The position numbers and the translations under genes are program-made. 64,000 bases of DNA from Streptomyces sp. NBC_00683 (GTDB lineage Bacteria; Actinomycetota; Actinomycetes; Streptomycetales; Streptomycetaceae), in NCBI RefSeq assembly GCF_036226745.1, contig NZ_CP109013.1, positions 4,960,001 through 5,024,000 of the forward strand, written 5' to 3'. The notes under the pieces are model-generated. The model was not told where the DNA came from. It was given only the letters and a program-made list of their open reading frames with translations, and did no database searches. The number at the start of each line of letters is the position of its first letter. Position 1 is the first letter of the stretch. This document shows positions 21,050 through 37,521 of the stretch, piece by piece.

Positions 21050-21114
21050 GCTTGATGAGAAGGCGCATGCAGGTGTTCGCCGGGACCGATCCCAAGCCGG
21101 CCGGCCCGGGCCGC

Positions 21115-21185: not shown

Positions 21186-21256
21186 CATCCGAGGCGATCA
21201 GCCACATGGCCCGGCGGCTCAAGAGGCGGCCCGGCCGTGAGTGCCTGGCACGTTGA
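21182..21256 (+). pseudogene. 3' end of an unidentified gene at the left attachment repeat
   Basis: An in-frame tail reading ASEAISHMARRLKRRPGRE ends with TGA at 21254-21256, just before the left 97-bp repeat. Its last residues (L-K-R-R-P-G-R-E) resemble the tail of the integrase remnant at the right end (L-E-R-R-P-G-G-E). It may be the end of a second, mostly lost element gene. Confidence 0.4.
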
Positions 21257-21265
21257 TGTCAGCTA

Positions 21266-21362
21266 TGGATGTCAGAAGGGCCCCACCTCCGAAAATCCGG
21301 AGGTGGGGCCCTTCTGAACTGGTGCCCCCGGCAGGATTCGAACCTGCGACACCCGCTTTAGG
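21266..21362. repeat. Left attachment repeat (tRNA-Arg 3' fragment plus terminator)
   Basis: Identical over 97 bp to 23709-23805. It contains an 18-bp perfect-stem hairpin (21274-21291 with 21298-21315) and the 43 nt from the anticodon loop to the CCA end of the tRNA. It is not a functional tRNA because the 5' half is missing. Confidence 0.9.
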
Positions 21363-21880
21363 GGCGAGGTGGGGCGAGTTGGGGCCTGACCTGCAACATG
21401 CCGGCTTTGGCGTTTTGTCCGCAGGCGTCTCTGCCGACGTCCGCAGTTCCCGTGAGTCCCCGCCCCACCTGGCGCGGTTGTGGCACGGGGTACTTCTGAT
21501 CCGTAGCTCTATGTGGATCGGTCGCGCACGGTCATGTCGGCCTCGCCAAGACCACGTAAGGGTGTTACCGGACGGGGCGGCTGCTGCACTTCGCTGCTTC
21601 ATACGAAAGGGCCGGTTCGAGAAGGTCAACCGATCGGGCGCCGCCGTATCCCAGCGCTCCTACCGTCGTCGTGAAGGCCGAGCAGGGGTGCCCATGTGCG
21701 CCCCTGTCCGGTGTCGTTGATGTCAGCGGTGGATGTCAGGGCGCACCCGTCGCGCACACTCGGGCGGGGTCGCTCGGCACTCGGACGATCCGACTGTCTT
21801 GTGCTGCGGACCAGCAAGACGGACGCTGAGTTGAGGGACGGGGGATGGTCCACTCCCTTGGTCCCTTGGGCGTGAAGGAG
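21363..21880. other. Non-coding interior of the mini element
   Basis: No gene with a believable start, length and codon pattern is seen. The only recognisable item is a third copy of the 25-bp motif at 21715-21739 (CGTTGATGTCAGC, one variable base, then GTGGATGTCAG), which also occurs just outside or at the edge of both attachment repeats (21251-21275 and 23694-23718). Confidence 0.5.
21715..21739. repeat. Internal copy of the 25-bp att-flanking motif
   Basis: Matches 23694-23718 at 24 of 25 positions and 21251-21275 at 23 of 25. Each copy holds a pair of GATGTCAG words, suggesting integrase arm-type binding sites. Confidence 0.6.
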
Positions 21881-21908
21881 GCCCCCGCCGCGGCGAAGCG
21901 ACGGGGGC
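21881..21908. terminator. Terminator after the tyrosinase gene
   Basis: A GC-rich hairpin (GCCCCCG plus CGC pairing with GCG plus CGGGGGC) 26 bp beyond the tyrosinase stop codon. Confidence 0.6.
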
Positions 21909-21933
21909 TTGTCTCTTGCTGTCGCTGGTCCGG

Positions 21934-23094
21934 TCAGGCCATCACTTCACGGGGGGAACGCCAGGCGATCGCCCCGGACAGGCCGGTGACCTCCAAAGCT
22001 CCGTCCCCCGTCAGCCTGAGACGGTTGCCGCGCCCGTCGATGCCCAGGCTCCACACCCGCTGTCCGTCGGCGTCGTCGATGGTGAGGTCGCCGTTCATCT
22101 GCATGACGCACATTCCAGGAGACCTGCGCTGTGTCTGGGACGACCACTGCGGAGTACGTTCGCCGTCCTGGTACAGGACCAGGTTCCCGTCGGTCTCGTA
22201 GACGAGCCGGTACCGGCCGCCCCCCGAGCTGATCGAGTCGCCGCTGCGCAGGGTGTCCCCGGGATGCATGTGGTCGCCCTGGGCCGTGGGGTTCTCGGTG
22301 TCGTAGACGTAGCCCAGGCTTCGGTGGTCGAGCACCGCGCTCACCCGCACGCTCGACCACGGGGGCATCAGGTCGTTGACGTTCTGTCCCGGCGGGCCGC
22401 CGCTCTGCGGGAGGTATGTCTCGTTCCGGTGGTTCTGCTGCCACAAGGCCCAGAGCCGGTCGATGTTGCAGTGATGCAGCCAGAAGACGGGGTCGTTGGG
22501 CGAACTGGTGAGTTCCATGTTGCCGCCGATCCACCGATGGACCCTGTTGTGGATGTCCGGCGTTATCACGCCTTCTATGGATTTGCGGAAGCTTTGGCTC
22601 ACCCCCTCCCACGGCTCGCTGTCGTACGGCGTCATTGCGAGGCAGGCGGACACGTCGCCTGTTGTCGGCAGGTGGTCGGCGCCGGCACCGAACTGCCGCC
22701 TGAGGTACGAAGGGATCTCCCGACTGGGATCGACGCAGAACCATCCGTTGCCTACGGCGAACGGACCGGTCATGACCCGGTCGTCGCTCGCCCTGCCGTT
22801 GCCGCCCATGAAGTAGTCGGCCCATGGATCGCTGGTGCCCGTCCAGTCCCAGTACGGAATGGTGAGCGTCGGCTGACCGGACGGGGTCGGCAGTGCCGTC
22901 TCGAAGATCCGGACGAACTCCCGGTGCCAGGGCAGGAAAGTGGGGACGTGGTGGTAGGAGTTCGCACCTGCCACGTGCGCCTTGGTGAACTGGTCGTATT
23001 TGCCTTGGGACTTTAGGTCCCACACCGCTGTGACGAGTTGCCGCTTCTGGTCCTCGGACAACAGGGCCTGGTTCCTGCGGACAAGTAGGGCCAT
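21934..23094 (-). CDS. Tyrosinase-domain copper protein fused to a bulb-type (GNA-like) lectin domain
   Basis: A 386-aa protein. Residues about 30-240 form a type-3 copper tyrosinase domain. The CuA site shows H...YHHVPTFLPWHREF, and the CuB site shows HNRVHRW followed by SPNDPVFWLHHCNIDRLW. Residues about 275-386 form a beta-prism II lectin domain with two QxDxNxVxY-like repeats (ETDGNLVLYQDGERTPQWSS and a degenerate MQMNGDLTI). No signal peptide and no MelC1-type copper chaperone gene is nearby, unlike the classic melC operon. It could oxidise phenolic residues on glycan-bearing targets (inference). It is the only intact gene of the mini element. Confidence 0.85.
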   Translation of the reverse strand: MALLVRRNQALLSEDQKRQLVTAVWDLKSQGKYDQFTKAHVAGANSYHHVPTFLPWHREFVRIFETALPTPSGQPTLTIPYWDWTGTSDPWADYFMGGNGRASDDRVMTGPFAVGNGWFCVDPSREIPSYLRRQFGAGADHLPTTGDVSACLAMTPYDSEPWEGVSQSFRKSIEGVITPDIHNRVHRWIGGNMELTSSPNDPVFWLHHCNIDRLWALWQQNHRNETYLPQSGGPPGQNVNDLMPPWSSVRVSAVLDHRSLGYVYDTENPTAQGDHMHPGDTLRSGDSISSGGGRYRLVYETDGNLVLYQDGERTPQWSSQTQRRSPGMCVMQMNGDLTIDDADGQRVWSLGIDGRGNRLRLTGDGALEVTGLSGAIAWRSPREVMA

Positions 23095-23212
23095 GGTGAG
23101 CCTCTCTCAACGATCGGCCGGATGGGTGAATGCCCCTCGACCAACATCGGATCGCAGCCGACTCGTCGCCACACGGAGTACGCCATTCGGGTGACGTCGC
23201 CAGAGCATCCCC

Positions 23213-23686
23213 GTGCCCACTCGGTCGGCAGAACTCTCCGGGTGGCTGCCCTACTGGTTCGACAACGTGGTGAAGCCTCGGCGCAAGCTCGGCACGTACG
23301 ACAAGTACGAAGCGCGCGTCCGGCTGTACCTGGTGCCCATGGTCGGAGGGAAGCGGCTGGGTTCGCTCGGTGACGCTGATGTCCGGCGCTTCCTCGTCCA
23401 GCTGAAGAACAAGACCACCGCGGCTACTGCAAAGGAATCGCACCGGGTTCTGCGCACCGCCCTCACTGCGGCCTCCTCTACATCCGCCGGCAGACCCAGC
23501 GGCGGCGCGGTGTTTCTTTACGACGACGATCCCAAGGCGCCGACTGGCTGTTCTGCTCCCGGCCATGTCATCGCGCCCCTTCGCCGGCACAGGATGCGAC
23601 AGGTTGCGGCCAAGGCTGGAGCGGGGGAGTCGTGGCAGGAGGCGGGCATGTCTTCGCTGCTCGAGAGGCGGCCCGGCGGTGAGTGA
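23213..23686 (+). pseudogene. Truncated, frameshifted tyrosine-recombinase integrase
   Basis: The N-terminal 85 residues are a clean SAM-like core-binding domain (GTYDKYEARVRLYLVPMVGGKRLGSL, then DVRRFLVQLKNK). After that the reading frame shifts: another frame carries GLLYIRRQTQRRRG and GADWLFCSRP, then the first frame resumes with RMRQVAAKAGAGESW, which resembles the segment before the catalytic RHxxR box. The box itself and the Tyr nucleophile are missing. It points toward the tRNA, the normal orientation for such integrases. Confidence 0.78.
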
Positions 23687-23708
23687 CCGACACCGTTGAT
23701 GTCAGCTG

Positions 23709-23805
23709 TGGATGTCAGAAGGGCCCCACCTCCGAAAATCCGGAGGTGGGGCCCTTCTGAACTGGTGCCCCCGGCAGGATTCGAACCTGCGACACCCGCT
23801 TTAGG
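23709..23805. repeat. Right attachment repeat (overlaps intact tRNA-Arg)
   Basis: Perfect 97-bp match to 21266-21362. Contains the 18-bp stem hairpin (23717-23734 with 23741-23758) and the 3' 43 nt of the intact tRNA gene. Confidence 0.9.
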
Positions 23806-23838
23806 AGAGCGGTGCTCTATCCCCTGAGCTACGAAGGC
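23763..23838 (-). tRNA. tRNA-Arg (anticodon CCU)
   Basis: A 76-nt cloverleaf including encoded CCA. The acceptor arms GCCTTCG/CGGGGGC pair with two G-U pairs. The anticodon stem CCGCT/AGCGG encloses loop CTCCTAA, giving anticodon CCT (reads AGG). The T-arm GGTTCGAATCC is canonical. A strong hairpin follows the 3' end. It is the integration target of the element to its left. Confidence 0.95.
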
Positions 23839-24445
23839 GCGGGGCCGCGGAAAGTCTTGTCGAAAACCCAGGGGACGGATCTTCGTCAAGGCTTGCAGGC
23901 CCGCTGGTCAGGCGTGGCGGACTGTCTTGTGCGATCTTGCTCGAGCAGACAGGCGGGACGTACCAACGACCGACCAGGGACAGCCTAGCGGATTCGCCGC
24001 CGTGGAGGGCTTCTGTATGTGGTTAGTGGCGCCGGACACAGGCGGCAGGGATCTGACCTGCGGTGTTCTCCGGATTGGCGTGATGCCGTCGCAGGTGGCG
24101 AGCGGCTCGGCCGGGGCGGCTCGACTGTTCCGAGGGACCGTCGCTCAAGTGATCTTCGGGGGGTGATCGAACACGGTTCCTGGGCGGGTGATCTTCAGGT
24201 CCGGGGTGGATGGAGGTCGGGGTGGGCGGCGGGAAGCTGACCGGGCATTCCCGGGAGCCTGCACGTCATCGGGCTCGCTGGGCTTGGGCCCTCTGCGGCG
24301 GGTGTCTCACACGCCGGGGCTGGGCGCGTCGGACTCGTCCGCCGTGGCGCTCGCCGTCGCGCCAAGGAGCGTCACCAGCACAATGAGTGACGTACCGTCA
24401 GGTGGTGAATTCGGCGGACCGTACCGGCATCGAAAGTGAGGCGGG
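23839..24445. other. Intergenic region right of tRNA-Arg
   Basis: About 600 bp without a supportable gene. Short open frames here lack ribosome-binding sites and typical codon bias. It may hold old integration debris, but no recognisable protein segment was found. Confidence 0.5.
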
Positions 24446-25033
24446 GTGGCCTTGAGCGAGGAAATCGAGGGCGCGGCCGAGGAGTTCGAGCGTTCGGTGA
24501 GCTGGCTGCACAGCGAATTGAGGGCTCTCGCGGCGGCCGTCGCGCCCGGGGTGGAGCCGGCGGTCGAGGAGCGGATCCAGGAGCGGCGCACCACGCGCGG
24601 GGCGATGGGCAGGCAGTTCACGGTGACCCTGACCCTGGCAGGCGCTTCCTGTGCTGCTGCGTCGGCCGTCGACGCCATGGCCGCGGCAGGCTGGTGTTCC
24701 GTCGAGACCGGCGAGGGCCTCGGGGGGTCCTCGGTGAAGGCGCGGCGCGACGGGTTCGAGGTGGGTCTCTTCAGTCGGCCGTCCGGCGGTCCGGTCATCT
24801 GGGGCAAGGCGCCCACCGTGTGGTTCCGCGACCGCTGGATACGTCCGCCGCGCGCGGCCGCGCCGCAGACACTGGCGCCCGGAGACCGGCTGTGCCGCAT
24901 GTGCGACGGCTGGGGCACATGCGGCGCATGCGAGGGGCTGGGCTTCGTGGACGGCAGCCGGTGTGGGGAGTGTGGTCTCGGAATGGACTGCTCCTTCTGC
25001 AGGGGCAGTGGCCGGGAGCGCCCGGACGGTTGA
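24446..25033 (+). CDS. Cys-rich protein with DnaJ-like zinc-finger C-terminus, function unknown
   Basis: A 195-aa protein from GTG 24446 behind GAGGCGGG. The N-terminal 55 residues are helical and charged. The C-terminal about 45 residues contain four CxxC-like knuckles of the CxxCxGxG type (CRMCDGWG, CGACEGLG, CGECGLG, CSFCRGSG), the pattern of the DnaJ cysteine-rich domain, without a J-domain. This suggests zinc-dependent protein binding. It lies about 400 bp upstream of the Fxs locus on the same strand; a link is possible but not shown. Confidence 0.7.
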   Translation: MALSEEIEGAAEEFERSVSWLHSELRALAAAVAPGVEPAVEERIQERRTTRGAMGRQFTVTLTLAGASCAAASAVDAMAAAGWCSVETGEGLGGSSVKARRDGFEVGLFSRPSGGPVIWGKAPTVWFRDRWIRPPRAAAPQTLAPGDRLCRMCDGWGTCGACEGLGFVDGSRCGECGLGMDCSFCRGSGRERPDG

Positions 25034-25431
25034 CCGCTTCGGTGCGCGCCCGCGTCTGTGGGGTGGGTCGGGGAGGCGGAGGGATGCACGGCAGGAAAGG
25101 CGGGTCCGTCTATTTCCGGTAATGCGTGGGACGTAAAGCCATTTGGTCCCGTCCTCGGTTGAATGATTTGACCGGATCGAAAGAAATAACCACAAAAGAA
25201 CCCTTGGGTCCGTCGCTCCGGTTGTCCGCCGCGCCGGGGGCGAGGCCGATTCCGAGGGGCTTCTGAATGGGTGTGCGGACAGGGCCGAGGCTGGTCAGCG
25301 GGGTCTGGGGTGAGGGGTGTTGGGCCGTCCGTGGCGCGTGTGCGAGGGCGAGGTTGATGGGTGGGTCGGTGCCGGTAAACGATCACTGACGCTCTGTTAT
25401 ATGCTCGCGCGAAAAGCGATGGCAGGGGAGC
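25034..25431 (+). promoter_or_regulatory. Upstream region of the Fxs locus
   Basis: No gene. It includes an unusually AT-rich patch at about 25150-25200 and a possible -10 hexamer TTATAT at 25397-25402, about 30 bp before the fxsA start; the -35 match is weak. A good ribosome-binding site AGGGGAG precedes ATG 25432. Confidence 0.4.
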
Positions 25432-25650
25432 ATGAAGTCAATCAATTCCGCCCCGCTGGTCTCGGTCCTGGCAGATGTCAGCGGGCTGAGTGACGCGGAG
25501 CTGGCCGAGCTGCCGGACACCGTATTCGCCGACATGGTGTCGCGGCTCAGGGAAGAAGTGCTCACCCCCTCCAGCGAGCCGGTTTCCGCGTTCACGTCGG
25601 CGCTCGACCCTGCGGCCGGGGAACGGGAGCGGACCCGCGAGCGGTCATGA
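25432..25650 (+). CDS. fxsA: FxsA-like precursor peptide with internal FxSxx motif
   Basis: A 72-aa peptide directly before, and coupled by ATGA overlap to, the radical SAM gene. The leader-like part has LADVSGLSDAELAELPD, similar to leaders of FxSxx-type peptides. The core motif FTSAL is at residues 54-58. In the named family (FxSxx-COOH) this motif ends the protein, but here it is followed by 14 charged residues (DPAAGERERTRERS). In the wider Fxs class the maturase is known to cross-link the aromatic residue with the Ser two positions later. The tail could be removed after modification, or could result from loss of the original stop codon. Confidence 0.75.
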   Translation: MKSINSAPLVSVLADVSGLSDAELAELPDTVFADMVSRLREEVLTPSSEPVSAFTSALDPAAGERERTRERS

Positions 25651-26891
25651 CGTTCCGCCAGTTCCTTCTCAAGTTGCATACGCGATGCAATTTGGCATGT
25701 ACGTATTGCTACGTATACGAGGCCGCTGACCAGAGCTGGCGGACGAAGGTGCGGCGGATGGAACACTCCACGGTGCGGCAGGTGGCCGCCCGGATCGCCG
25801 ACTACCGGAGGCCGCCGGGGGGCGGGACCGGGGCGGAACGGTCCGACGGGCCGATCTCGGTGATTCTTCACGGCGGTGAGCCCCTGCTCGTCGGGCATCG
25901 GCATCTCGACGGGACCCTGAGGATTCTGCGCGACGCGCTGGACGGCACCGGCGAGGTCGCCTGGGGGATGCAGACCAACGGGGTGCTGCTGGGCCAGGAT
26001 CCGGAGCTGCTGCGGGTGCTGCGCCGGTACGGCGTGCGCGTCGGGGTCAGCCTCGACGGGACTGCCGCGGGCCATGACCGGTACAGGAAGTTCGCCGACG
26101 GGCGAGGCAGTCACGGGGCCGTGGCCCGGGCGCTGCGCATCCTCGGGGACGGGGCCGACCGGGAGCTCTTCAGCGGAGTGCTGTGCACCATCGACCTGGA
26201 CGCCGACCCCGTGGAGACCTACGAGGCGCTGCTCGAATTCTCGCCGCCGCGGATGGATCTCCTGCTGCCGCACGGCACATGGGACGTCCCCCCGCCGGGC
26301 CTTGCGGCACGGCGCGTACCACCAGGAAGGCCGCCCGGTTCGCAGGACGGGCCGTGTGACGGGGCGCAGGACAGTCCGGGGGCGACCCCGTACGCCGACT
26401 GGCTGTGCGCCGTCTTCGACCGCTGGTACGGGGCGCCCCGGCGTGAGACCGGGATCCGGCTCTTCGAGGAGCTGATCATGCTGCTGCTGGGCGGCCGGGC
26501 GAGCAGCGAGATGGTGGGCAACGGCCCGCTGGACCTCGTCGTCGTGGAGACGGACGGCTCGCTGGAGCTGGCCGACAGCCTGAAGGTGTCGTACGACGGG
26601 GCGGCTGCCACCCCGCTGGACGTGTTCCGTGATGCTTTCACCGTGGCCGAGGCGCATCCGGCCTTCCGCAGTCCGGAGCTGTCGCCCGTCTGCGCTTCCT
26701 GCCCGCTGGTGGCGGTCTGCGGCGGAGGGCTGTACGCCCACCGGTACAGCCACGGGCCCGGTGATCCGTTCGCTCATCCCACGGTCTACTGCGCGGACAT
26801 GGCCGCCCTGATCGGGCACATCCGGCGCAGGCTGGAGCACGATCTGGCCAGGCTGAAGGAGCGCCGGCCGGCCGGTTCGGTGGCCCGGTGA
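25647..26891 (+). CDS. fxsB: FxsB radical SAM/SPASM peptide maturase
   Basis: A 414-aa enzyme. The radical SAM cluster motif CNLACTYC is at C14/C18/C21, followed by HGGEPLL (SAM binding GGE). The SPASM region near the C-terminus has CASCPLVAVC (C349, C352, C358) and a late Cys at 382. Members of the Fxs, Xye and Grr maturase systems form three-residue cyclophanes, joining an aromatic ring carbon to the beta-carbon two residues on. The first 25 codons are rich in non-preferred, AT-richer codons. ATGA overlap with fxsA and GTGA overlap with the next gene indicate one translational unit. It lacks the C-terminal hydroxylase-like extension of many Streptomyces FxsB homologues. Confidence 0.9.
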   Translation: MTFRQFLLKLHTRCNLACTYCYVYEAADQSWRTKVRRMEHSTVRQVAARIADYRRPPGGGTGAERSDGPISVILHGGEPLLVGHRHLDGTLRILRDALDGTGEVAWGMQTNGVLLGQDPELLRVLRRYGVRVGVSLDGTAAGHDRYRKFADGRGSHGAVARALRILGDGADRELFSGVLCTIDLDADPVETYEALLEFSPPRMDLLLPHGTWDVPPPGLAARRVPPGRPPGSQDGPCDGAQDSPGATPYADWLCAVFDRWYGAPRRETGIRLFEELIMLLLGGRASSEMVGNGPLDLVVVETDGSLELADSLKVSYDGAAATPLDVFRDAFTVAEAHPAFRSPELSPVCASCPLVAVCGGGLYAHRYSHGPGDPFAHPTVYCADMAALIGHIRRRLEHDLARLKERRPAGSVAR

Positions 26892-27961
26892 ACGGGCCGG
26901 GGGCCGCGCCTGCCCGGCATCTGATTCCGCGCGAGACCTTCCTGGCGCTGGCCCGGGGGCGGGGCGGCGCCTCCGCCGTGGCCGTTCTGCGGGCCGGACA
27001 GCTGAGCAAGCGCAGGCTGCTGCTGAGCGCGGTGCGCCGGGTCGCGGAGGAGCGTGCCCCGCGTGTGGTGCGGCAGATGCGGCTGGCGGAGACGTACGAC
27101 CGGATCGAGGAGTTGCGCCAGGAGTCCACGGAGCGGTGGGAGTCGGTGCTCCTCCATCCCTATCTGGACCTGTGGGCGGCCGGTGCGCTGCGCGCGCTGT
27201 ACACGGAGACGGGCGGCGGCGAGGTGGATCCCGTGCCTGGCGGGCTGGCCCGGCTGCTGGATCCGGGCGGCCCGGTCCTCCAGGTGGAGTCGCGGGGGCG
27301 CTGTCTCACCGTAAGGATCGATGACCGCGGCCCGTACCGAGAGGCGCACGGTGACCCGGTGCCGGGGCCCCTGGACGGCGCAACGGTGCGCCGCTGGGAG
27401 GGACTGCTGTCCGAGGCCTGGCAGTTGCTCGTCGAGCGGCATCCCTGGCACGCCGAGGCCGTCGGCGCCGGGGTGTCCACGCTGGTGCCGCTCCTGCCGA
27501 AGCCCGACGGCACAGCGGTGTCCTCGGTGGTGCGCCGCGGATACGGCGCGGTCGGCGTGTCCCTGCCCGCCGACGCCGAGCGGCTGGCGCTGGCGCTGGT
27601 CCACGAGTTCCTGCACATCCAGCTGGGCGCGCTGCTCGATCTCGTACCGCTGCACGGGCCGGACTCGGGGGCGCGCTATCACGCGCCGTGGCGCACGGAT
27701 CCGCGCCCTGCGGGCGCCCTGCTTCAGGGAACGTACGCGCATCTGGGGGTCTCGGACTTCTGGCGGGTGGAACGGGGCAGGGAGCACTGGCCCGGGCCGC
27801 TGACCCGGAGTTACGCCGGCGGCCAGTACAGCCACTGGCGTGAGCGGACCGCCGATGCCGCGCGGACTCTGCTGGGCAGCGGTGAACTCAACTACGAAGG
27901 AGAGCAGTTCGTCGAGGAACTGAGCCGTACCATCGGCGACTGGGACAGGGATACGGGCTGA
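26888..27961 (+). CDS. Stand-alone HExxH-motif peptide beta-hydroxylase homologue
   Basis: A 357-aa protein. The motif HEFLH (H239, E240, H243) is followed by a conserved block with H285 (TYAHLGVSDFW), the likely third metal ligand. This domain is known as the HExxH domain of RiPP loci, recently described as alpha-ketoglutarate-dependent peptide beta-hydroxylases. In many Streptomyces Fxs loci the domain is fused to FxsB in an inactivated form. Here it is separate and its motif looks intact, so an active hydroxylation step is plausible (inference). It starts at GTG overlapping the fxsB stop. Confidence 0.82.
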   Translation: MNGPGAAPARHLIPRETFLALARGRGGASAVAVLRAGQLSKRRLLLSAVRRVAEERAPRVVRQMRLAETYDRIEELRQESTERWESVLLHPYLDLWAAGALRALYTETGGGEVDPVPGGLARLLDPGGPVLQVESRGRCLTVRIDDRGPYREAHGDPVPGPLDGATVRRWEGLLSEAWQLLVERHPWHAEAVGAGVSTLVPLLPKPDGTAVSSVVRRGYGAVGVSLPADAERLALALVHEFLHIQLGALLDLVPLHGPDSGARYHAPWRTDPRPAGALLQGTYAHLGVSDFWRVERGREHWPGPLTRSYAGGQYSHWRERTADAARTLLGSGELNYEGEQFVEELSRTIGDWDRDTG

Positions 27962-28133
27962 ACGGCGTCCTGCCGACTCCGTAACGGCACTGCGTACCGT
28001 CGAGTTCTGGCCATAACGTGACCGTGGGCACAGTCTGCGTGGCCGCGGGCAATAACTGGCCGTTTCCGAGGGTATTCAGTTGGTGCCGGGGCACTGTGGG
28101 CCTGCGTTCAGCAGATCGAGTCGTGGGGGCGCG

Positions 28134-29498
28134 GTGGGGCCGTACTTCTTTCTGAGCTATGCCAGGACCGATGACCAGGACGCTTATGTGCGCCGGTTCT
28201 ACGACGACTTATGTGCGCAGATCATGGAACTGGCCGGTAGCGCGGTCCGGTTGCCGGTCGGATTCCGGGACAACAGCTCCATCCGTATCGGTGAGCACTG
28301 GAGCGAGCGCCTGGAAAGCGTGCTCGGCATCTGTCATTCGATGGTGGCGCTCTACTCGCCCGACTATTTCCGCAGCGAGTGGTGTTCGCGTGAGGCCGGA
28401 GTGATGATGCGGCGCGCGAACCAGTACTTCGCGCGGACCCAGAAGGGCTCGTCGGCGCTGATCCCCGTGCTGTGGCGCCCCGTCGACATTCCGTCCGAGG
28501 TCGCGCACATCCAGTACGTCACCGACGGCTTCGGATCCTGGTACGCCGATGCCGGGCTGCAGCGGCTGCTCCAGAAGGACCCTGCGGGCGAGGACTACCG
28601 CAACGCCGTACGGCTCGTCGCGCAGCGCGTCCTGTACGTCGCCGAGCGCGAGAAGCTGCCCGTGGCCAACGGCATCCGGCTGGCACAGGAACCCCTGTCG
28701 TTCCCGCCGCGCACCGCACCCACCAGGCCGGGCAGCACCGTCCAGTTCTTCGTGGCCGCCGGCACCGCGGACACGCTGCCCGAAGAGCGCAGGAGCGCCC
28801 CGTACTACGGCCGTGCGGGGCTCGACTGGAATCCGTACCACCCGCAGGAGGAGTACCCGATCTACCAGGTGGCTCAGCGCCTGGTGACGGCACAGGGGTA
28901 CGGCACCGCCTACCGGGAGGTGCGCAGTGGGCTCACCCGGCAGCTCAATCAGGCATGGCGCGACGACCAGGTGTCGATCCTGCTGGTGGACGCGTGGAGC
29001 GCGCCGGTGTCGCCGTACCGTGAGCAGTTGGAGCAGTTCGACCGGACGGAGCATCCCGCGACCGGCGTTCTCGTTCCCTGCCATCCCCGGGAGGACGGGG
29101 AGCGGGGGGAACTCTGGCGCGGGGTGACCGAGGTCTTCGAGCGGAAGTCGTCGCGCGGCACACAGGACAGGCAGTTCCAGGTCCGGGTCAGTGCCACGGA
29201 CTTCAAGCAGGCCCTGGGGCGGATGGTGTCCTCCGCGCAGAACAACCTGATACGCAAGCGCCATGCCCCTGTGGCCCCGGGTGCGGGCGAGCAGGGGACG
29301 GTGTCGGCGCGCCCGATCCTGCGGGGGCCGACCAGCGGAACCGGCAGCGGGCCGGGCAGCGCTCCGCCACGGATTCCAGGGCCGGCCGGTGGAACACCGC
29401 AGGCCGGCCCTCCCGCTGACCGGCCGGTGAACCGGCCTCGCAGGCCCGGCGGGCACGGGCCGCTCGACTCTCGTGGTGACGGAGGCGCAGGGCGATGA
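28134..29498 (+). CDS. fxsC: FxsC: TIR-domain protein of the FxSxx-COOH system
   Basis: About 454 aa. The N-terminus is a TIR-like domain (PYFFLSYARTDDQD...GFRDNSSIRIGEHWSERL...MVALYSPDYFRSEWC). The middle holds the FxsC domain (VQFFVAAGTADTLPEE...YYGRAGLDWNPYHP), with a Pro/Gly-rich tail. A TTA leucine codon is at 28209-28211 (codon 26), implying dependence on the bldA tRNA. The start is uncertain: GTG 28134 fits the domain edge, but TTG 28080 or GTG 28083 have a better GAGGG site upstream. The 3' end overlaps fxsT by 4 bp (ATGA). Confidence 0.87.
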   Translation: MGPYFFLSYARTDDQDAYVRRFYDDLCAQIMELAGSAVRLPVGFRDNSSIRIGEHWSERLESVLGICHSMVALYSPDYFRSEWCSREAGVMMRRANQYFARTQKGSSALIPVLWRPVDIPSEVAHIQYVTDGFGSWYADAGLQRLLQKDPAGEDYRNAVRLVAQRVLYVAEREKLPVANGIRLAQEPLSFPPRTAPTRPGSTVQFFVAAGTADTLPEERRSAPYYGRAGLDWNPYHPQEEYPIYQVAQRLVTAQGYGTAYREVRSGLTRQLNQAWRDDQVSILLVDAWSAPVSPYREQLEQFDRTEHPATGVLVPCHPREDGERGELWRGVTEVFERKSSRGTQDRQFQVRVSATDFKQALGRMVSSAQNNLIRKRHAPVAPGAGEQGTVSARPILRGPTSGTGSGPGSAPPRIPGPAGGTPQAGPPADRPVNRPRRPGGHGPLDSRGDGGAGR

Positions 29499-32400
29499 CC
29501 AGGGACGGTTGGGACGGTTCGGCGAGCGGGGACGCTTCGGGCGGCTGGGACGACGGAGACACCTTCGGGGGTGCGGAAGGCCTGCGGCTGGTGGACACCC
29601 CTGCGGGATCCGGGGAGTTCGGGGCTGTTTCCGGGGCTGTTGGTGCAGGGTTCGGAGCGGGCGGCGCCCAGGTGCCGGGTGCGAGGTCCCCGGCGGAAGG
29701 CGGCGCGGTGCCGGGCGAGAGGCCGGGTGAGAGGCCGGGAGCAGCCGGCACCGGTGGGAAGCGCACCGGGGAACCCGGCACCGTCGTGACGTTCTACTCG
29801 TTCAAGGGCGGCGTCGGCCGCACCATGGCTCTCGTCAACACCGCCTGGATCCTTGCCAGTAACGGCCTGCGGGTTCTGATCATCGACTGGGACCTGGAGG
29901 CGCCGGGGCTCCACCGCTACTTCCATCCACTGCTGGTCGACCCCGAACTCGGCTCCACCAAGGGCGTCATCGACCTCATCCGCGACTACTCCATGCGAGC
30001 CTCCGGGCCCGGTCCCGAGCCCCTGCCCGGAGGGCGGGTCGACTGGGACCGCTGGTTCCGTGACCACTCCGATGTCGACGACTGCATCGTCGGGGTGCGC
30101 ATGGACTTCGCCGACGACGGGCGGCTCGACTTCCTGCCCGCAGGTCTCCAGAACGACGGATACTCCGCGGCCGTCTCCACCTTCGACTGGGACCACTTCT
30201 ACACGCAGCTGCGGGGCGCCGAGTTCCTCACTGCCCTGCGCGACGAGCTGAGCGAACGCTACGACTACGTCCTGATCGACAGCCGTACGGGACTGTCCGA
30301 CACGGCCGGCATCTGCACGATCCTGCTGCCCGACGTCGTCGTCGACTCCTTCACCCTGAGCGCCCAGTCGATCCAGGGTGCCGCAGCCGTCGCCGAGTCC
30401 GTGCGGGCCCAGGCCACGATGCGGCCCATCCGGATCCTGCCCGCCCCGATGCGCGTCGAGTACGCCGAACAGAACAAGCTCGAGGCCGGCCGGGACCTGG
30501 CCCGCAGCAGGTTCCAGTCGTTCCTCGGCTCCATGACCCGCGAGGAACGCGACCTGTACTGGGGCGATGTGGAGATCCCCTACCGGCCCTTCTTCGCGTA
30601 CGAGGAGATCCCCGCCCCCGTAGGCGACCGGCCCCACCAGGGCAACAGCCTGCTGGCCGCGTCCGAGAGGCTCACCGGCCGGATCACCGACGGGCGGGTC
30701 ACGAAGCAGCGCCCGATGCCGGAGACGATGCGGCGGGCGCTGCTCGCCTCGTACGAGCGGACCAAGGCGCCCATCCCCTCCGACATCTTCCTCAGCTACG
30801 CGCCCGCGGACCGCATGTGGGCGGAGTGGATCGGCGCCCGGCTCACCGCGACCGGCTACCAGGTGGCCCTCAGCGGCTCGGCCGAGCACGCGGGCGCCGA
30901 CACCATGACCGACGTACGTCTGGCCCTGGCCGGATCCGGCCGGATCGTGGTGCTCCTCTCGCCGGACTTCGTCCGGCTGCCGCACGCCCACGAGCTGTGG
31001 AAGTCGGTGTCCTCCCGGGACCCGGAGGCCTCGCAGCGGATGCTGATCCCCATCCGGGTCCACGACGCCCCGCTGCCCGCCCCCTTCGCGGGCCTGGTGG
31101 CCGTGGACCTTGTCGAGCGGGACCAGGAAGAGGCGGAGCAGGCGCTGCTGGCGGCCGTGGGCAGGCCGGACAACGCCGTGGCGGGCACCCTCAGGACCCC
31201 CGGCAGGGCGGCCACCGAGGAGGAGAGCGGACCGCGCTATCCCGGAGTCGTTCCCCGGGTCTGGCACGTGCCTTCGCGCAACCCTTCCTTCACCGGTCGT
31301 GCCGGCACGCTGGAGCAGATGCGCAACGGCTTCGCCGCGAGCGGGCTGCAAGGCGGGCCGCCGCAGGCCGTGTTCGGGCTCGGCGGGGTGGGCAAGACGC
31401 AGGTCGCCATCGAGTACGCGCACAGGTTCGCCGCCGATTACGACGCCGTGTGGTGGATAGCGGCCGGTCAGCCCGGCCTCGTGCGCCAGGAACTGGCCGC
31501 GCTGGCAGCCGAGTTGGGTCTGCCGGCCCGTGACGACGTGGCGACGACGGCGGCCGCCGTGCTGGAGGCGTTACGGCAGGGGCGGCCCTACCGGCGCTGG
31601 CTCCTGGTCTACGACAACGCCGAACGGCCCGAGGAGCTGGCCCCGTTGATCCCGGCAGGGCCCGGCCACGTCCTGGTGACGTCGCGCAACCGGGCCTGGG
31701 TGGCACTCGCGGTCCAGGTGGAGGTCCATGTCTTCACCCGGGACGAGTCCGTGCGACTGCTCCGGCGGCAGAACCCGAACCTGACGGACACCGAGGCCGG
31801 TCAGGTCGCCGAGGCGCTCGGCGACCTCCCGCTCGCCGTCGGGCAGGCGGCGGCCTGGCTGGAGCAGTCGGCCATGCCCGTGGAGACGTATCTGCGGCTG
31901 CTGGAGACCCAGTTGACGCAGATGCTGGAGCAGGAGCCGCCCACGAGCTATCCGCGCTCGGCGGCAGCCACCTGGCTGCTGTCGCTTCGCGCGATGCGGG
32001 AGGCGACGCCCGCCGCCGCGCTGCTTCTGGAGATCTGCGCGTTCTTCGGCCCGGACCCGATCCCGATGTGGACGCTGTACGGCAGCCGTACGGCGGAGCT
32101 GCTGGAGCAGTACGACGACCGCCTGGACGATCCGATGCGGATGGGCAGGCTGTTCACCGACATCAACCGCTACGGCCTCGCCCGCACCGACCAGGGCGAC
32201 CGGACCATCAGCGTGCACCGGCTGGTGCAGGAGGTGCTGCGCTCCCAGGTGCCGCGCGAACGGTGGGCCGAGATGCGCGCCCATGTGCACGCGATTCTCG
32301 CCGAGGCCAATCCCGGGTACGCCGAGGACCCCGCCTCCTGGGGGCGGCACGCGGCACTGCTCCCGCACATGGCCCCGTCGCGGGCCTTCAGCAGCAGGTC

Positions 32401-33727
32401 CGCGCGGGTACGCCGCTGGGTGGTCGACGCGGTCCGCTACCTGTGGCGGCGCTCCGATCACAGTGCGGCCCTGGAAACGGCCGAACGGGCCCTGGGCCTC
32501 TGGGTTCCCGTATTCGGGGACGGCGACTCCCTGGTGATCCTCATGCGGTGCCAGCAGGCCAATGCGCTGAGGTCCGCCGGAAAGCTCGCGGAGGCGCACG
32601 CGCTGGGCCTGGAGGTGTGGGAGCAGGCCCGTGAGTCGCTGGGCGAGGACGACGAGTACACCCTGATCGCCGCCGGGAACCTCGGCGCCGACCTGCGCAG
32701 CACCGGCGCCTACACGAAGGCGCGGGACATCGACCGGGAGACCTACCGGGTCAGCCAGCGGGTGCACGGCCTGCGGACCCCGCGCACACTCAGCGCCGCG
32801 AACAACCTCGCGGTCTCCCTCTTCCTGTCCGGCGACCGGCAGGGTGCCCGCGAGCTCGACCGGTACGTGTACGAGACCCGGCGCGAAGTGCTTGGCGCCA
32901 CCCATCCGTACACGCTCACCTCCGCCAGCAACTACGCACGGGACCTGCGGGAGACGGGGGCGCCGGAACAGGCGCTGAAACTGCTCCAGGAGACCGTGGC
33001 GGCCTTCCGGGAGCGGACCGGCGACAAGCATCCGGAGACGCTGAGCGCGGCCCGCAACCTCGCGGCGGTGCTGCGCCGCACCGGTCAGTACGAGGCGGCC
33101 AGGGCGCTCAGTGCCGACATCTACGACACGTACATGAGCGTGCTCGGCCCCGACCATCCGGACACCCTCTCCGCGGCCACCAACCTGGCCTGTGCGCTGG
33201 TGGCCACGGGGGACGCGCAGGGGGCGCGGGCGCTCGCGCAGGACGCCCTCGACCGGCACCGCACCCAGCTGGGGGAGCGGCATCCGTTCGCACTGGCCTG
33301 CGCGAACAACCTGGCCGTGTACCTGCGGCTGACCGGGGCGCGCGATGCGGCGCTGGCCATGTCGCGCAGAACCCTCCAGCAGTACCGGGAGGTTCTCGGC
33401 GCCGCCAATCCCTACACGCTGACCAGCATGATGAACCACGCCACCGACCTGGTCACCAACAACAGGACGGCAGAGGCGGTGGCGCTGGAGCGTGAGGCGT
33501 ACGCCGACTTCGTCCGCGTCCTGACAGCCGATCACTACGACGCGATCGGCTGTGCGTCGAACCTGGCGCTGGACCTGCGGGCGACCGGGGCGACGGACGA
33601 GGCGGCGGCCCTGCACCAGGACGCCCTGGAGCGGGCCGCGGCGACGATGGGTGCGGAACATCCGACCACGCTGGCGGTGCAGGCGTGGGGGAGACTCGAC
33701 TCGGACATCGAGCCGCCCGCTCCCTGA
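29495..33727 (+). CDS. fxsT: FxsT-like protein: ParA-type NTPase, TIR, NB-ARC and TPR domains
   Basis: A 1410-aa protein and the largest of the locus. After a Gly-rich lead of about 95 residues comes a SIMIBI/ParA-like NTPase (FYSFKGGVGRTMALVNTA, P-loop 104-110, then IIDWDLEAPG). A TIR domain follows at about 428-560 (DIFLSYAPADRMWAEWI). NB-ARC starts near 620 with P-loop GLGGVGKT (628-635), then LLVYDNAE and VLVTSRN. Residues about 990-1400 are kinesin-light-chain-type TPRs. The combination of NTP switch, TIR and TPR sensor is typical of conflict/defence signalling ATPases. A TTA codon lies at 31571-31573 (codon 693). The role within the RiPP locus is unknown. Confidence 0.9.
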   Translation: MTRDGWDGSASGDASGGWDDGDTFGGAEGLRLVDTPAGSGEFGAVSGAVGAGFGAGGAQVPGARSPAEGGAVPGERPGERPGAAGTGGKRTGEPGTVVTFYSFKGGVGRTMALVNTAWILASNGLRVLIIDWDLEAPGLHRYFHPLLVDPELGSTKGVIDLIRDYSMRASGPGPEPLPGGRVDWDRWFRDHSDVDDCIVGVRMDFADDGRLDFLPAGLQNDGYSAAVSTFDWDHFYTQLRGAEFLTALRDELSERYDYVLIDSRTGLSDTAGICTILLPDVVVDSFTLSAQSIQGAAAVAESVRAQATMRPIRILPAPMRVEYAEQNKLEAGRDLARSRFQSFLGSMTREERDLYWGDVEIPYRPFFAYEEIPAPVGDRPHQGNSLLAASERLTGRITDGRVTKQRPMPETMRRALLASYERTKAPIPSDIFLSYAPADRMWAEWIGARLTATGYQVALSGSAEHAGADTMTDVRLALAGSGRIVVLLSPDFVRLPHAHELWKSVSSRDPEASQRMLIPIRVHDAPLPAPFAGLVAVDLVERDQEEAEQALLAAVGRPDNAVAGTLRTPGRAATEEESGPRYPGVVPRVWHVPSRNPSFTGRAGTLEQMRNGFAASGLQGGPPQAVFGLGGVGKTQVAIEYAHRFAADYDAVWWIAAGQPGLVRQELAALAAELGLPARDDVATTAAAVLEALRQGRPYRRWLLVYDNAERPEELAPLIPAGPGHVLVTSRNRAWVALAVQVEVHVFTRDESVRLLRRQNPNLTDTEAGQVAEALGDLPLAVGQAAAWLEQSAMPVETYLRLLETQLTQMLEQEPPTSYPRSAAATWLLSLRAMREATPAAALLLEICAFFGPDPIPMWTLYGSRTAELLEQYDDRLDDPMRMGRLFTDINRYGLARTDQGDRTISVHRLVQEVLRSQVPRERWAEMRAHVHAILAEANPGYAEDPASWGRHAALLPHMAPSRAFSSRSARVRRWVVDAVRYLWRRSDHSAALETAERALGLWVPVFGDGDSLVILMRCQQANALRSAGKLAEAHALGLEVWEQARESLGEDDEYTLIAAGNLGADLRSTGAYTKARDIDRETYRVSQRVHGLRTPRTLSAANNLAVSLFLSGDRQGARELDRYVYETRREVLGATHPYTLTSASNYARDLRETGAPEQALKLLQETVAAFRERTGDKHPETLSAARNLAAVLRRTGQYEAARALSADIYDTYMSVLGPDHPDTLSAATNLACALVATGDAQGARALAQDALDRHRTQLGERHPFALACANNLAVYLRLTGARDAALAMSRRTLQQYREVLGAANPYTLTSMMNHATDLVTNNRTAEAVALEREAYADFVRVLTADHYDAIGCASNLALDLRATGATDEAAALHQDALERAAATMGAEHPTTLAVQAWGRLDSDIEPPAP

Positions 33728-33796
33728 CCTGGTCCGCTCCTGACCCCACCCGGTCCCGGACACTCCTGGTCCCGGACGCCTCGACCCGATGTCACG

Positions 33797-33812
33797 TGTG
33801 ACGCGCATCACA
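33797..33812. promoter_or_regulatory. Crp-like binding site upstream of the ECF sigma gene
   Basis: TGTGACGCGCATCACA fits TGTGA-N6-TCACA. It ends 45 bp before the likely sigma start codon. Confidence 0.55.
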
Positions 33813-33857
33813 GGAACCGCGAGGCGTGGGCGGACAAGTCAGGAGGTGAACTACTCG

Positions 33858-34484
33858 ATGCATGCCCGCATCCGCGCGGGGGACCCGGAGGCGTTCCGCG
33901 AGCTGTTCCGCGACCATGCCCAGCTCGTCTACCGGCACGCGGTGCGGACCACGGGGGACTGGGACGCGGCCGAGGACATCGTGTCGCTGACCTTTCTGGA
34001 GGCATGGCGGCTGCGCGGGAAGCTGCGGGACGAAGGTGACAGTCCGCGGCCCTGGCTGATGGGGATCGCGGTCAACGTGCTGCGCAACACGGGGCGCGCC
34101 GCCCGGCGGCACGAGAGAGCGCTGGCCAGACTGCCCTTGCGGGACGTGTTGCCGGATTTCGCCGACGAGTTGGTCGGGCGGATCACGGACTCGGAGGAAC
34201 TGGCCGCGGCGAAGACCGCGTTGGGGCAGTTGCGCAGGAGCGAGCGCGAAGTCTTCGCACTGTGCGTGTGGTCCGGGCTCGGTTACGCGGAGGTCGCCGA
34301 GGCGCTCGGAGTGCCGGTGGGCACGGTGCGTTCCCGGCTGTCGCGGGCGAGAACCCGGCTGCGCAAACTCACGGACGGGGAGTTGCGCCGCCTGCGAAGA
34401 AAGAGGGAACCGGTCGGGACGGGCGGACAAGTACAGGGTGGCCGCGTCGATGCGGTCCGGTCGAACGAGGAGAGAAACCGATGA
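33858..34484 (+). CDS. ECF-type RNA polymerase sigma factor
   Basis: About 208 aa. Region 2 shows DPEAFRELFRDHAQLVYRHAVRTTGDWDAAEDIVSLTFLEAW, and region 4 shows LRRSEREVFALCVWSGLGYAEVAEALGVPVGTVRSRLSRARTRL; these recognise -10 and -35 elements. ATG 33858 is preferred, with AGGAGG at 33841-33846; an upstream ATG at 33789 has no ribosome-binding site and a Crp-like site overlaps it. The gene is coupled by ATGA overlap to the next gene, a common place for its regulator. It sits 60-130 bp after fxsT. Confidence 0.9.
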   Translation: MHARIRAGDPEAFRELFRDHAQLVYRHAVRTTGDWDAAEDIVSLTFLEAWRLRGKLRDEGDSPRPWLMGIAVNVLRNTGRAARRHERALARLPLRDVLPDFADELVGRITDSEELAAAKTALGQLRRSEREVFALCVWSGLGYAEVAEALGVPVGTVRSRLSRARTRLRKLTDGELRRLRRKREPVGTGGQVQGGRVDAVRSNEERNR

Positions 34485-35617
34485 ATCGCACCCCTTGGCG
34501 GCGGCGCCGTGAGCCGCTCGACCATGTGGAGTCGGCGGCGCTGCTGCCGGCGCCAGGCGATCCGGTGCTTTCGCGCGACCGCCTGACCACGCTCGAGGAG
34601 CACCTGATGAACGAGATCCGCCAGGCGCAGGACCGGAAGTCGACCGGGGCGCAGCCGCAGACCGTGGCCCTTTTCCCGCCGAGTTCTCCCGAGCCGCCGC
34701 GCCGTACCGGCAGTCGCCGGCTCGCGCTGATCGGGGCGGCTGCCGCGGTCGCCGTGCTGGCCGGGACGATCGGAGTCGCGCAGTTGACGGGGCAGAAGGC
34801 CGTCGAAGCCGCCGGTCCGCCGGAAGGATCTGTTCCCGCTTCGGTGGTACAGGTCGCGCAGGGCACGACGGAAGGGCTGAGCAGCACGGTCGACCGGATC
34901 TCCGTGGCCGCCGTGAAGGAGAAGCTCCCCGAGCCCCGGCCGGGGCAGTTCATCTACATCAAGAGCCAGGTCTCCTGGCTGACGATGTCGGAGAACGTGG
35001 ACACCGGGAAGAGCGAGACCTATGTGCAGAAGCTGCATGGCCGCCAGGTCTGGCTGTCGCCGGACGGCCGCAGGGGCTGGCTGATCGAGCCGGGAAACGG
35101 CACGACGTCCAGGGACGGGCTGACTCTGGACGACGAGGGGGAGGCCCTGGAGCCGAGCATCGGTTCGCCCAGCTACGACTACCTCAAGACGCTGACCACC
35201 GACCCCGACGAGCTGCTGAAGAAGATCTACGAGGAGACGGAGGGGCAGGGCAACGGCCCCGACCAGCAGGCCTTCACCACGATCGGTGACCTGGTGATGG
35301 AGCAGGTGATGCCGGCGGAGCTGACATCCGCGCTGTACCGGGCGGCCGCGAAGATCCCTGGCGTGGTGGTGGTGGACGACACGACCGATGCGGTGGGGCG
35401 GCACGGGATCGCCATAGCCCGGACCGATGAGACGGGCGGCGCCCGCACCGAGTGGATCTTCGACCCGAAGACCTTCAGCTACCTGGGGGAGCGCACGGTG
35501 CAGATGCGCGACATGGAGGGGGTCGAGGCCGGCACGGTGACCGGGCACACGGCGATCACGGAGCGGGCGGTTGTGGACGCGATGAAGGAGCTCCCGGGGG
35601 CCAAGGGCAAGGTCTGA
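34481..35617 (+). CDS. CU044_5270 family membrane protein, partner of the ECF sigma factor
   Basis: A 378-aa protein starting at ATG 34481 behind GAGGAGAG, overlapping the sigma stop codon. The N-terminal about 75 residues are cytoplasmic, one helix lies at about 77-97 (LALIGAAAAVAVLAGTIG), and the rest is an extracytoplasmic domain with a YIKSQVSWLT...GRQVWLSPDGRRGWLIEPG core. Proteins of this family are regularly coupled to ECF sigma genes. An anti-sigma role is possible, but no zinc-binding anti-sigma motif is visible. Confidence 0.8.
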   Translation: MNRTPWRRRREPLDHVESAALLPAPGDPVLSRDRLTTLEEHLMNEIRQAQDRKSTGAQPQTVALFPPSSPEPPRRTGSRRLALIGAAAAVAVLAGTIGVAQLTGQKAVEAAGPPEGSVPASVVQVAQGTTEGLSSTVDRISVAAVKEKLPEPRPGQFIYIKSQVSWLTMSENVDTGKSETYVQKLHGRQVWLSPDGRRGWLIEPGNGTTSRDGLTLDDEGEALEPSIGSPSYDYLKTLTTDPDELLKKIYEETEGQGNGPDQQAFTTIGDLVMEQVMPAELTSALYRAAAKIPGVVVVDDTTDAVGRHGIAIARTDETGGARTEWIFDPKTFSYLGERTVQMRDMEGVEAGTVTGHTAITERAVVDAMKELPGAKGKV

Positions 35618-35730
35618 CCTGGCCGAAAGGGTGAGCAGGGCTTGGGGCGGGGGGCTGCTGTTTCTTGACGGGGGCGGGGCGCGGGCATAGCGTCGCCGGG
35701 TTGCTGAGACAGCGCTTGGAGAGGTCGACC

Positions 35731-37509
35731 GTGCCACACACCGACCCCACCCCTTCCCCAGATTCCGCTCCCGCTCCCGCCCGCGATCGGGTCGCCCACG
35801 ACCGGGCCGCCCACGATCAGGCCGCCCGTGCACGGGCCGAGGCGGTACTGACCGCACCCGGTGCTCCCTTTGCCGTGGTCCGTGCCGAGCACGGCCCGCT
35901 CGTCTATGCGAACGGGCCCCGCACACTGCGCGAGTTCGTCGAGACCACCTGGGCCTTCGGCGACCAGCCGTTCCTGATCGCGGGTGAACGGACCTGCTCG
36001 TACGCGGAGTTCTTCGCCGGCGCGTCCTCGCTGGCGCGGCGGCTCTCCGAGACGTACGGGCTGCGTCCCGGAGACCGGGCTGTGATCGCGATGCGCAACC
36101 ACCCCGAGTGGCAGATCGCGTTCTGGGCGGCTCAGCTGGCCGGCCTCGTCGCCGTCCCGCTCAACGCCTGGTGGACCGAGGGGGAGTTCGGCTACGCCCT
36201 CGACGACTGCGAGCCGCGGGTGCTGCTGGTCGACGGGGAGCAGCTGCCGAAGGTGGCGGCATGGGGGGAGAAGGCCGGGGCGCGCTTCGTCGTCTTCCAT
36301 GACGAGGCACTCGGGGAAGGAGAGCTGCCCGACAGGGCCGAGCGGTACGCGGACCTGCCCGCCCCCGACCCGCTGGCCGCGCCTCCCGAGGTGGAGATCC
36401 GCCCGGAGGACGACGCCACGATCATCTACACCTCCGGCACCACGGGGCGGCCCAAGGGTGCTGTCGCCACTCACCTCGCGCAGGCGGGTGCCGCTCTCAA
36501 TCCGCGTTACCAGGCCGCCGCCTCCGCACTGGGCCGCGGGATCATCCCCGGGCAGGGACCGGCTCCGGTCACCCTGATGACGTTCCCGTTCTTCCACGTC
36601 GCGGCGTTCACCAGCCTCTACGCGGCGATGGCGGCGGGCGGCACCCTCGTCCTGATGCGCAAGTGGGACGCCGACGAGGCCCTGCGGCTGATCCGTGAGC
36701 ACGGGGTCACGCACTACGCCGGAGTGCCGGCCACCGCGCTCCAGTTGATTGCCGGAGCGGACCGTGCGGGCGACGGGCTGGAGAGCCTGCTGATGCTGAA
36801 CACGGGCGGGGCGGCGGCTCCGCCCGACCTGGTCGCGCAGCTCACCGCCCGGCACGGTGAGCGGATCGAGCCGCGCAACGGCTACGGCCTGACCGAGACG
36901 AGCGGGGGAGTGCTGGCCAACTTCGGCGCCTCGTACCGCGCCCACCCGGAGAGTGTCGGGACCCCGACGCCGGTCACCGAGGTGCGGATCGCCGGTGCGG
37001 CGGGGGAAGCACTGCAGGAAGGTGAGGTCGGTGAGCTGTGGCTGCGCGGTCAGTCCGTGGTCCGCGGCTACTGGCGCAACGAAGAGGCGACGGCCGAGGC
37101 GTTCAGCGGCGGCTGGTTCCGTACGGGGGATCTCGCCGTGGTCCGGGACGGGCGGGTCGCCGTGGTCGACCGGATCAAGGACATGGTGATCCGGGGCGGC
37201 GAGAACGTGTACTGCGTCGAGGTCGAGGCGGCGTTGCACGACCACCCCGATGTCGAGGACGCGGCGGTGCTGGGTGTCCCGCACCCGGTGCTGGGCGAGG
37301 AGGTCGCGGCGGTCGTCCGGCTGCGGCCGGGCGCCGAGACCGGTGTCGAGGAGCTGCGGGCGCAGGTGGCCCGGAGTCTGGCCCCGTTCAAGGTTCCGGC
37401 CCATGTCCTGGTGACGCACGAACCGCTGCCCCGGAATCCGACCGGGAAGATCCTCAAGCGGGAGCTCCGGGAGACGGTCAGGGACCATGCGCACAGGAGC
37501 GGGGGCTGA
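35731..37509 (+). CDS. Class I adenylate-forming acyl-CoA synthetase/ligase
   Basis: A 592-aa AMP-dependent synthetase. Core motifs are present: the P-loop-like YTSGTTGRPKGAV, the aromatic GYGLTETSGG, the hinge VVDRIKDMVIRGGENVYCVEVE, and the catalytic Lys near the C-terminus (PTGKILKRELR). It activates a carboxylic acid with ATP and CoA; the substrate, likely a fatty or aromatic acid, is not obvious. GTG 35731 with GGAGAGG upstream is chosen over GTG/ATG further upstream. The N-terminal about 30 residues contain His/Ala/Asp repeats. Confidence 0.9.
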   Translation: MPHTDPTPSPDSAPAPARDRVAHDRAAHDQAARARAEAVLTAPGAPFAVVRAEHGPLVYANGPRTLREFVETTWAFGDQPFLIAGERTCSYAEFFAGASSLARRLSETYGLRPGDRAVIAMRNHPEWQIAFWAAQLAGLVAVPLNAWWTEGEFGYALDDCEPRVLLVDGEQLPKVAAWGEKAGARFVVFHDEALGEGELPDRAERYADLPAPDPLAAPPEVEIRPEDDATIIYTSGTTGRPKGAVATHLAQAGAALNPRYQAAASALGRGIIPGQGPAPVTLMTFPFFHVAAFTSLYAAMAAGGTLVLMRKWDADEALRLIREHGVTHYAGVPATALQLIAGADRAGDGLESLLMLNTGGAAAPPDLVAQLTARHGERIEPRNGYGLTETSGGVLANFGASYRAHPESVGTPTPVTEVRIAGAAGEALQEGEVGELWLRGQSVVRGYWRNEEATAEAFSGGWFRTGDLAVVRDGRVAVVDRIKDMVIRGGENVYCVEVEAALHDHPDVEDAAVLGVPHPVLGEEVAAVVRLRPGAETGVEELRAQVARSLAPFKVPAHVLVTHEPLPRNPTGKILKRELRETVRDHAHRSGG

Positions 37510-37521
37510 GCGCCGCGGTTC

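Follow-up and report, generated by a model that had tools for sequence, protein, structure and literature searches.

A complete five-gene Fxs locus in Streptomyces sp. NBC_00683 pairs a receptor-like FxsT whose TIR domain lacks the catalytic-type glutamate with a glutamate-bearing FxsC

Why do cyclophane enzymes of ribosomally synthesized and post-translationally modified peptides (RiPPs) travel with receptors resembling nucleotide-binding leucine-rich repeat proteins (NLRs)? We followed this question at one locus of Streptomyces sp. NBC_00683, whose genome is a single contig of 8.52 Mb. The window, meaning the whole stretch of DNA analysed, had 64,000 nucleotides (contig NZ_CP109013.1, positions 4,960,001 to 5,024,000), and the locus lies on its plus strand at 25432–33727. 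Its five genes encode a precursor peptide (FxsA), a radical SAM/SPASM maturase (FxsB), a HExxH protein, a TIR protein (FxsC) and a multidomain protein (FxsT). The gene content, the intact enzyme sites and the TIR domain that keeps the catalytic-type glutamate can all be read from the sequence. What we chiefly add to existing knowledge is that a glutamate-less TIR domain in FxsT is paired with a glutamate-bearing FxsC, which also forms the end domain of proteins in other conflict systems.

The proteins were identified by the curated family cut-offs of NCBIfam (in bits), with Pfam as a second library, and all five exceeded them: fxsA (25432–25650, 72 amino acids; TIGR04268, 38.6 bits, cut-off 28), fxsB (25647–26891; TIGR04269, 384.6, cut-off 370), a separate aKG-HExxH-type peptide beta-hydroxylase (26888–27961; TIGR04267, 150.2, cut-off 40), fxsC (28083–29498; NF040588, 166.7, cut-off 130; TIGR04276, 128.4, cut-off 55) and fxsT (29495–33727; NF040586, 978.5, cut-off 300; NF047398, 148.3, cut-off 90). 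According to the predicted model and fold comparison, FxsC has a TIR domain and a second Rossmann-type domain. Its start is ambiguous, possibly GTG at 28083 instead of TTG at 28080, and the database copy has 471 amino acids. FxsT combines a KGGVGR ParA-like domain, TIR, NB-ARC, DUF7779 and TPR; Pfam recognized TIR_2 and TPR, with NB-ARC at 21.7 bits, slightly below its cut-off of 23.5. The gene content and order had been predicted correctly by a sequence-only reading, and profile searches and gene-order comparison, the checks it proposed, both bore it out. The start-stop overlaps it described are also real (ATGA at 25647–25650, GTGA at 26888–26891, ATGA at 29495–29498); the junction between the HExxH gene and fxsC is the only one without overlap, with a gap of ~120 bases. 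Because two further members of the genus (G157 and G272) have the identical order, the arrangement is no chance grouping. The locus is a stand-alone Fxs system with the complete five-gene set of a known kind: the system type is already in print (Kaur et al. 2020, PMC7159879 section 24, accessible text) and its enzymes are named by NCBIfam. Literature searches on FxsC, or on cyclophane or RiPP enzymes with TIR, NB-ARC or defence, yielded nothing relevant beyond Kaur et al., subscription papers being mostly outside their coverage.

The two TIR proteins differ at the catalytic-type glutamate. In FxsC this is Glu105 (28392–28394, numbered from 28080), invariant in the protein of the window and in 42 others selected from the further 85 FxsC listed. 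The FxsT TIR domain (30785–31147) has Leu in this column. In one alignment, Glu occupied the column in 24/25 FxsC, 0/26 FxsT of type I (the FxsC/ParA type) and 49/54 FxsT of type II. These counts, like those of conserved residues below, exclude three duplicate loci, with which they become 27/28, 0/29 and 49/54; of the 85 FxsT rows, two were dropped from the alignment for shortness. The register of the column is supported by the Trp that follows it (in 22 FxsC, 19 type I and 53 type II rows) and by profile comparisons of the type I FxsT TIR with FxsC (E 4e-5, probability 69%) and with type II (E 1e-18); direct comparison of the type II and FxsC profiles gave no alignment. Of the five type II FxsT without the glutamate, one (L134) sits in an FxsC locus, and 17/26 type I FxsT have an acidic residue one place ahead of the column (E500 in the window). 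As type I FxsT form in effect one clade, the contrast between FxsC and FxsT represents one evolutionary event.

The FxsC profile matched the plant TIR-NLRs Roq1, L6 and RUN1 (E 3e-4 to 2e-3), and its predicted model resembles the TIR domains of SPARTA and RUN1. In the match to Roq1, Glu105 aligned with the CxxE glutamate of plant TIR-NLRs, which is catalytic in those proteins. Structure 7s2z is, by its title, a RUN1 E100A mutant bound to nicotinamide adenine dinucleotide (NAD). From these comparisons we infer a putative NADase in FxsC. The residue pattern suggests that the key residue was lost from the TIR domain of FxsT, and that FxsC, a separate protein, does this domain's job. The P-loop Lys634 of the FxsT NB-ARC domain was present in 82/82 rows. 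In the ParA-like domain (29783–30403), Arg replaces the P-loop Lys (KGGxGR) in 26/27 rows, and the other motifs are kept.

FxsC also occurs outside Fxs loci. A tblastn search of plasmids found it on four records. On a Streptomyces plasmid it forms the end of a 1524-amino-acid SAV_2336-TPR-FxsC protein, its gene preceded by those of an AAA ATPase and a VMAP-M2 protein. This protein takes the place of the vWA component by gene order only, judged by the VMAP systems of Kaur et al. (2020, PMC7159879, accessible text): it had no Pfam vWA domain, and the MoxR model stayed below its cut-off. Seven FxsC frames of at least 949 amino acids, from the list of 199 genomes, all lay in loci where relatives of these three proteins follow in the same order, and no FxsB or HExxH match was found in 14–15 kb per locus. 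These loci were picked for frame length, so they do not tell how often FxsC is fused. One of them (L152) has the same size as plasmid record H2, a close relative of the first Streptomyces plasmid; in another (L158) a KGGxGR ATPase comes after FxsC. A Rhizobium plasmid (L140, 8992–12533) encodes an FxsC-like TIR protein (119.3 bits, below the cut-off of 130) that overlaps a KGGxGR-ATPase-FGE protein; neither FxsB nor HExxH had a match in the 19 kb examined. This pair lies near other TIR, WD40 and SLOG genes. All 9 FxsC copies outside Fxs loci, Rhizobium included, keep the TIR glutamate. The KGGVGR ATPase itself was found on 12 plasmid records. We inspected ten besides that of Rhizobium beringeri, leaving out one of two from R. 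phaseoli, and none of these regions had an annotated FxsC; one (L143) carries a TIR-protein annotation, and in another (L146) a SAV_2336 protein and a caspase lie alongside. The presence of FxsC at the end of VMAP-system proteins and the distribution of the glutamate lend support to the earlier suggestion that the TIR and NB-ARC modules are the executors. The analogy to conflict systems likewise holds, and had been proposed before (PMC7159879 section 24, accessible text).

On the peptide side, the enzyme sites are intact. FxsB Cys 14, 18, 21, 349, 352 and 358 were found in 106/106 rows above 400 bits and Cys 382 in 105/106; three of these conserved residues, present in all 106 rows, are the radical SAM cysteines. 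FxsB matched the solved ChlB structure 9gm3 with E 1.3e-56. We take family IPR026335 to be that of FxsB. Its member MscB joins Phe C4 to Ser Cbeta (PMC11002830, accessible text). By analogy, and from the motif position, the predicted FxsB product is a cyclophane linking Phe54 to Ser56 in the FTSAL core of FxsA (residues 54–58, 25591–25605). The HExxH protein carries its metal site as HEFLH (27602–27616). Residues H239, E240, H243 and R273 were present in 75/75 rows above 200 bits, a limit that excludes the HExxH-less second locus of the same genome (L086). Among solved relatives, 22nu and 22ob matched strongly and ChlH (8s5f) weakly. A fused enzyme studied by Morinaka, Zhang and Nicolet hydroxylates Asp and His after cyclophane formation (PMC12636437, accessible text). 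With its metal site intact, the HExxH protein is a predicted peptide hydroxylase.

Our preferred reading, held tentatively and with somewhat less than even confidence, makes FxsT an NLR-like receptor under the control of an intracellular cyclophane peptide, and FxsC its putative NADase. FxsB would tie Phe54 of FxsA to Ser56 in a three-residue cyclophane, and the HExxH enzyme would then hydroxylate a residue of this ring or one adjoining it, for which Asp59 is a candidate. As neither a transporter nor a protease is encoded by the five genes, the modified peptide would stay intracellular. FxsT, a protein of the STAND (signal transduction ATPases with numerous domains) type, would use its TPRs to read the peptide or to register that an attack has removed or altered it. 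Its NB-ARC domain would oligomerize upon sensing, its glutamate-less TIR domain would recruit FxsC, and the TIR domain of FxsC would split NAD, causing growth stop or cell death. The ParA-like KGGVGR domain may be coupled to FxsC, probably for assembly or placement. A more specific proposal, possible but doubtful, is that the catalytic TIR domain has moved off the receptor. FxsC would then be a plug-in NADase, recruited by a dead-TIR FxsT and used also by the VMAP systems and the Rhizobium KGGVGR pair, and the cyclophane peptide of the cell itself would be either the gating ligand or a guarded decoy. If our preferred reading is true, the association of RiPP cyclophane enzymes with NLR-like receptors becomes a testable question, and the locus would be a bacterial case of a dead-TIR receptor using a separate live TIR.

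The precursor of the window is a variant of the Fxs kind, and the variation is modest. FxSxx is not C-terminal: FTSAL occupies residues 54–58 of 72, followed by a 14-residue tail (25606–25647). The database held ten FxsA relatives besides FxsA itself, several of them near-identical. Tail lengths in seven counted FxsA, that of the window included, were 14, 14, 4, 4, 4, 8 and 8. EPVSAFxSA(L/I) was fixed ahead of the tail in all seven, and the tail letters varied. Between peptides P0001 and P0091, 4/14 tail positions and 4/58 others differed (Fisher one-sided p 0.04, a weak signal from one chosen pair). Other FxsC-type loci had tails of 0 to 6 residues, and NCBI keeps the name FxSxx-COOH for relatives with 4-residue tails. 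At the junction of fxsA and fxsB, a length difference to G157 and G272 shifts the frame past their TGA, to a TGA overlapping the fxsB ATG. The 14-residue tail is therefore probably a late read-through of the former gap between the genes, with the ATGA overlap as its by-product. Upstream of fxsA, by 29 bases, lies a promoter-like block (25380–25402, plus strand; CGATCAnnGnnnCTnTGnTATAT), kept in G157 and G272 although the surrounding upstream DNA diverges. As a regulon site it was rejected: the genome holds a single exact copy plus another with 3 mismatches, and a backwards control likewise gave 2.

We compared 99 distinct FxsB loci: 80 collected by similarity, that of the window, the second locus of the same genome and 17 of 20 further ones, three duplicates being dropped. 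Because similarity to the split FxsB of the window guided the sampling, fused forms may be under-counted. The HExxH protein was a separate frame in 71 loci and fused in four, with L012 counted under both; 25 loci yielded no such frame. The split hydroxylase, named in the heading of the sequence-only reading, is the majority state in these loci, and neither a special trait nor a novelty. The HExxH motif was intact in 74/75 hits, the exception being the second locus of the same genome. FxsT was near FxsB in 91/99 loci; of the eight without, three (L059, L063 and L064) stop near FxsB at a contig end. FxsC was found in 24/99 loci, each of them with a ParA-like domain encoded as well; three more loci had this domain without FxsC (L046, L120 on a 5.5 kb contig, and L136). 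A peptide-like frame was detected in 70/99 loci by a custom profile run at a permissive threshold, so that neither all hits nor all absences are certain.

The second Fxs locus, at 6.727 Mb, has a 57-amino-acid FxsA-like frame ending in FSSAL, a 749-amino-acid fused FxsB-hydroxylase without HExxH, FxsC and FxsT. NCBIfam has a model for the inactivated hydroxylase form (NF040587). Elsewhere in this genome (L087, 1.459–1.475 Mb) we noted a third HExxH protein and an NB-ARC-TPR-like protein, with no FxsB match within 16 kb. L129, L130 and L132 each hold FxsC-FxsT genes (one pair in L129 and in L132, two in L130) flanked by two FxsB genes whose FxsA-like peptides differ, so two peptide modules may share one receptor. 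A phage origin of the system was dropped, as FxsB had no match at E 1e-10 among 50,697 phage records. The genes just downstream of the locus also match downstream genes in G157 and G272, and the locus therefore seems inherited in place. Directly after fxsT (33789–35617) lie an extracytoplasmic function (ECF) sigma factor gene and its next gene, without blastp match in the stretches of G157 and G272. The only RNA family at gathering scores in 20000–40000 was one tRNA gene, on the minus strand at 23766–23838, ~1.6 kb upstream of fxsA.

Other roles for the peptide were weighed against this evidence. Many RiPPs made by radical SAM enzymes are secreted, and the peptide could be an exported signal or antibiotic that FxsC and FxsT regulate or protect against. 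We consider this distinctly unlikely: no transporter or protease matched among the five proteins (genes beyond them were only sampled), and inspection by eye showed no hydrophobic signal segment in FxsA. Nor do we favour a role in normal development or cell division, with ParA-like and TIR modules acting on growth upon the peptide and not against invaders. The kinship of the ParA-like domain to ParA/MinD, the inheritance in place and the link of such systems to bacteria of complex development (Kaur et al., PMC7159879, accessible text) speak for it. It nevertheless appears unlikely, given that the distribution is patchy: of 199 genomes from the genus, 72 carry FxsC (70 above the cut-off), and FxsB at 74% identity or more was found in three of 392, the own genome included (in G272 over residues 1–231). 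FxsC is moreover found on the four plasmid records and in VMAP systems.

Two further alternatives concern the chemistry. The modified peptide itself could be the toxin, held or released by FxsT or FxsC, in line with the "peptide toxin or signal" suggested by Kaur et al. (PMC7159879, accessible text). FxsC, however, ends proteins in systems with no peptide enzymes nearby and keeps its TIR glutamate, which makes a second toxin unneeded, and we rate this as highly improbable. The HExxH enzyme could also cut the chain oxidatively, removing the tail after FxSA. PflC and PosC cleave at a C-terminal ARMD motif, PflC in this oxidative way, with a small first residue favoured (PMC12636437, accessible text), and FxSA is fixed in the FxsA peptides while their tails vary. 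Tail length, however, does not track HExxH presence: three FxsC loci in which no HExxH gene turned up (L129, L130 and L132) have tails of 4–6 residues, and L006, L119 and L124 have the gene and no tail. Tail removal by this enzyme is thus unsupported, and very unlikely.

Among known systems, the stand-alone FxSxx systems of Kaur et al. (2020, PMC7159879) are closest. They share the peptide, the radical SAM-SPASM protein, the HExxH protein and the ParA-like NB-ARC-TPR protein; in the accessible text, however, the HExxH protein is termed a metallopeptidase and FxsC is not named, and FxSxx is internal in the window. Every model of the NCBIfam FxSxx-COOH system (TIGR04268, TIGR04269, TIGR04267, NF040588/TIGR04276 and NF040586) was matched above its cut-off, but the peptide of the window does not end in FxSxx. 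Of the triceptide enzymes, ChlB (9gm3) resembles FxsB, and ChlH (8s5f) weakly the HExxH protein; they are described as a fused protein, and FxsC and FxsT are not mentioned in the accessible text (Morishita 2024 and Ruel 2025, as cited in PMC12636437). In PADLOC, with FxsA left out, PDC-M28B matched only the ParA part of FxsT and viperin only the radical SAM part of FxsB; the NCBIfam Thoeris model ThcB4 gave 22 bits against the FxsC TIR domain (cut-off 220). The VMAP-MoxR-vWA ternary systems have the FxsC end domain in common, in one case (L158) with a KGGVGR ATPase next to it, but VMAP, MoxR and vWA were unmatched in the five proteins of the window (NCBIfam, Pfam). With the TIR NADases RUN1, Roq1 and SPARTA, FxsC appears to share the fold and the glutamate position, judging from alignments and the predicted model; unlike in those systems, the glutamate-bearing TIR domain here sits on a separate protein, off the NLR.

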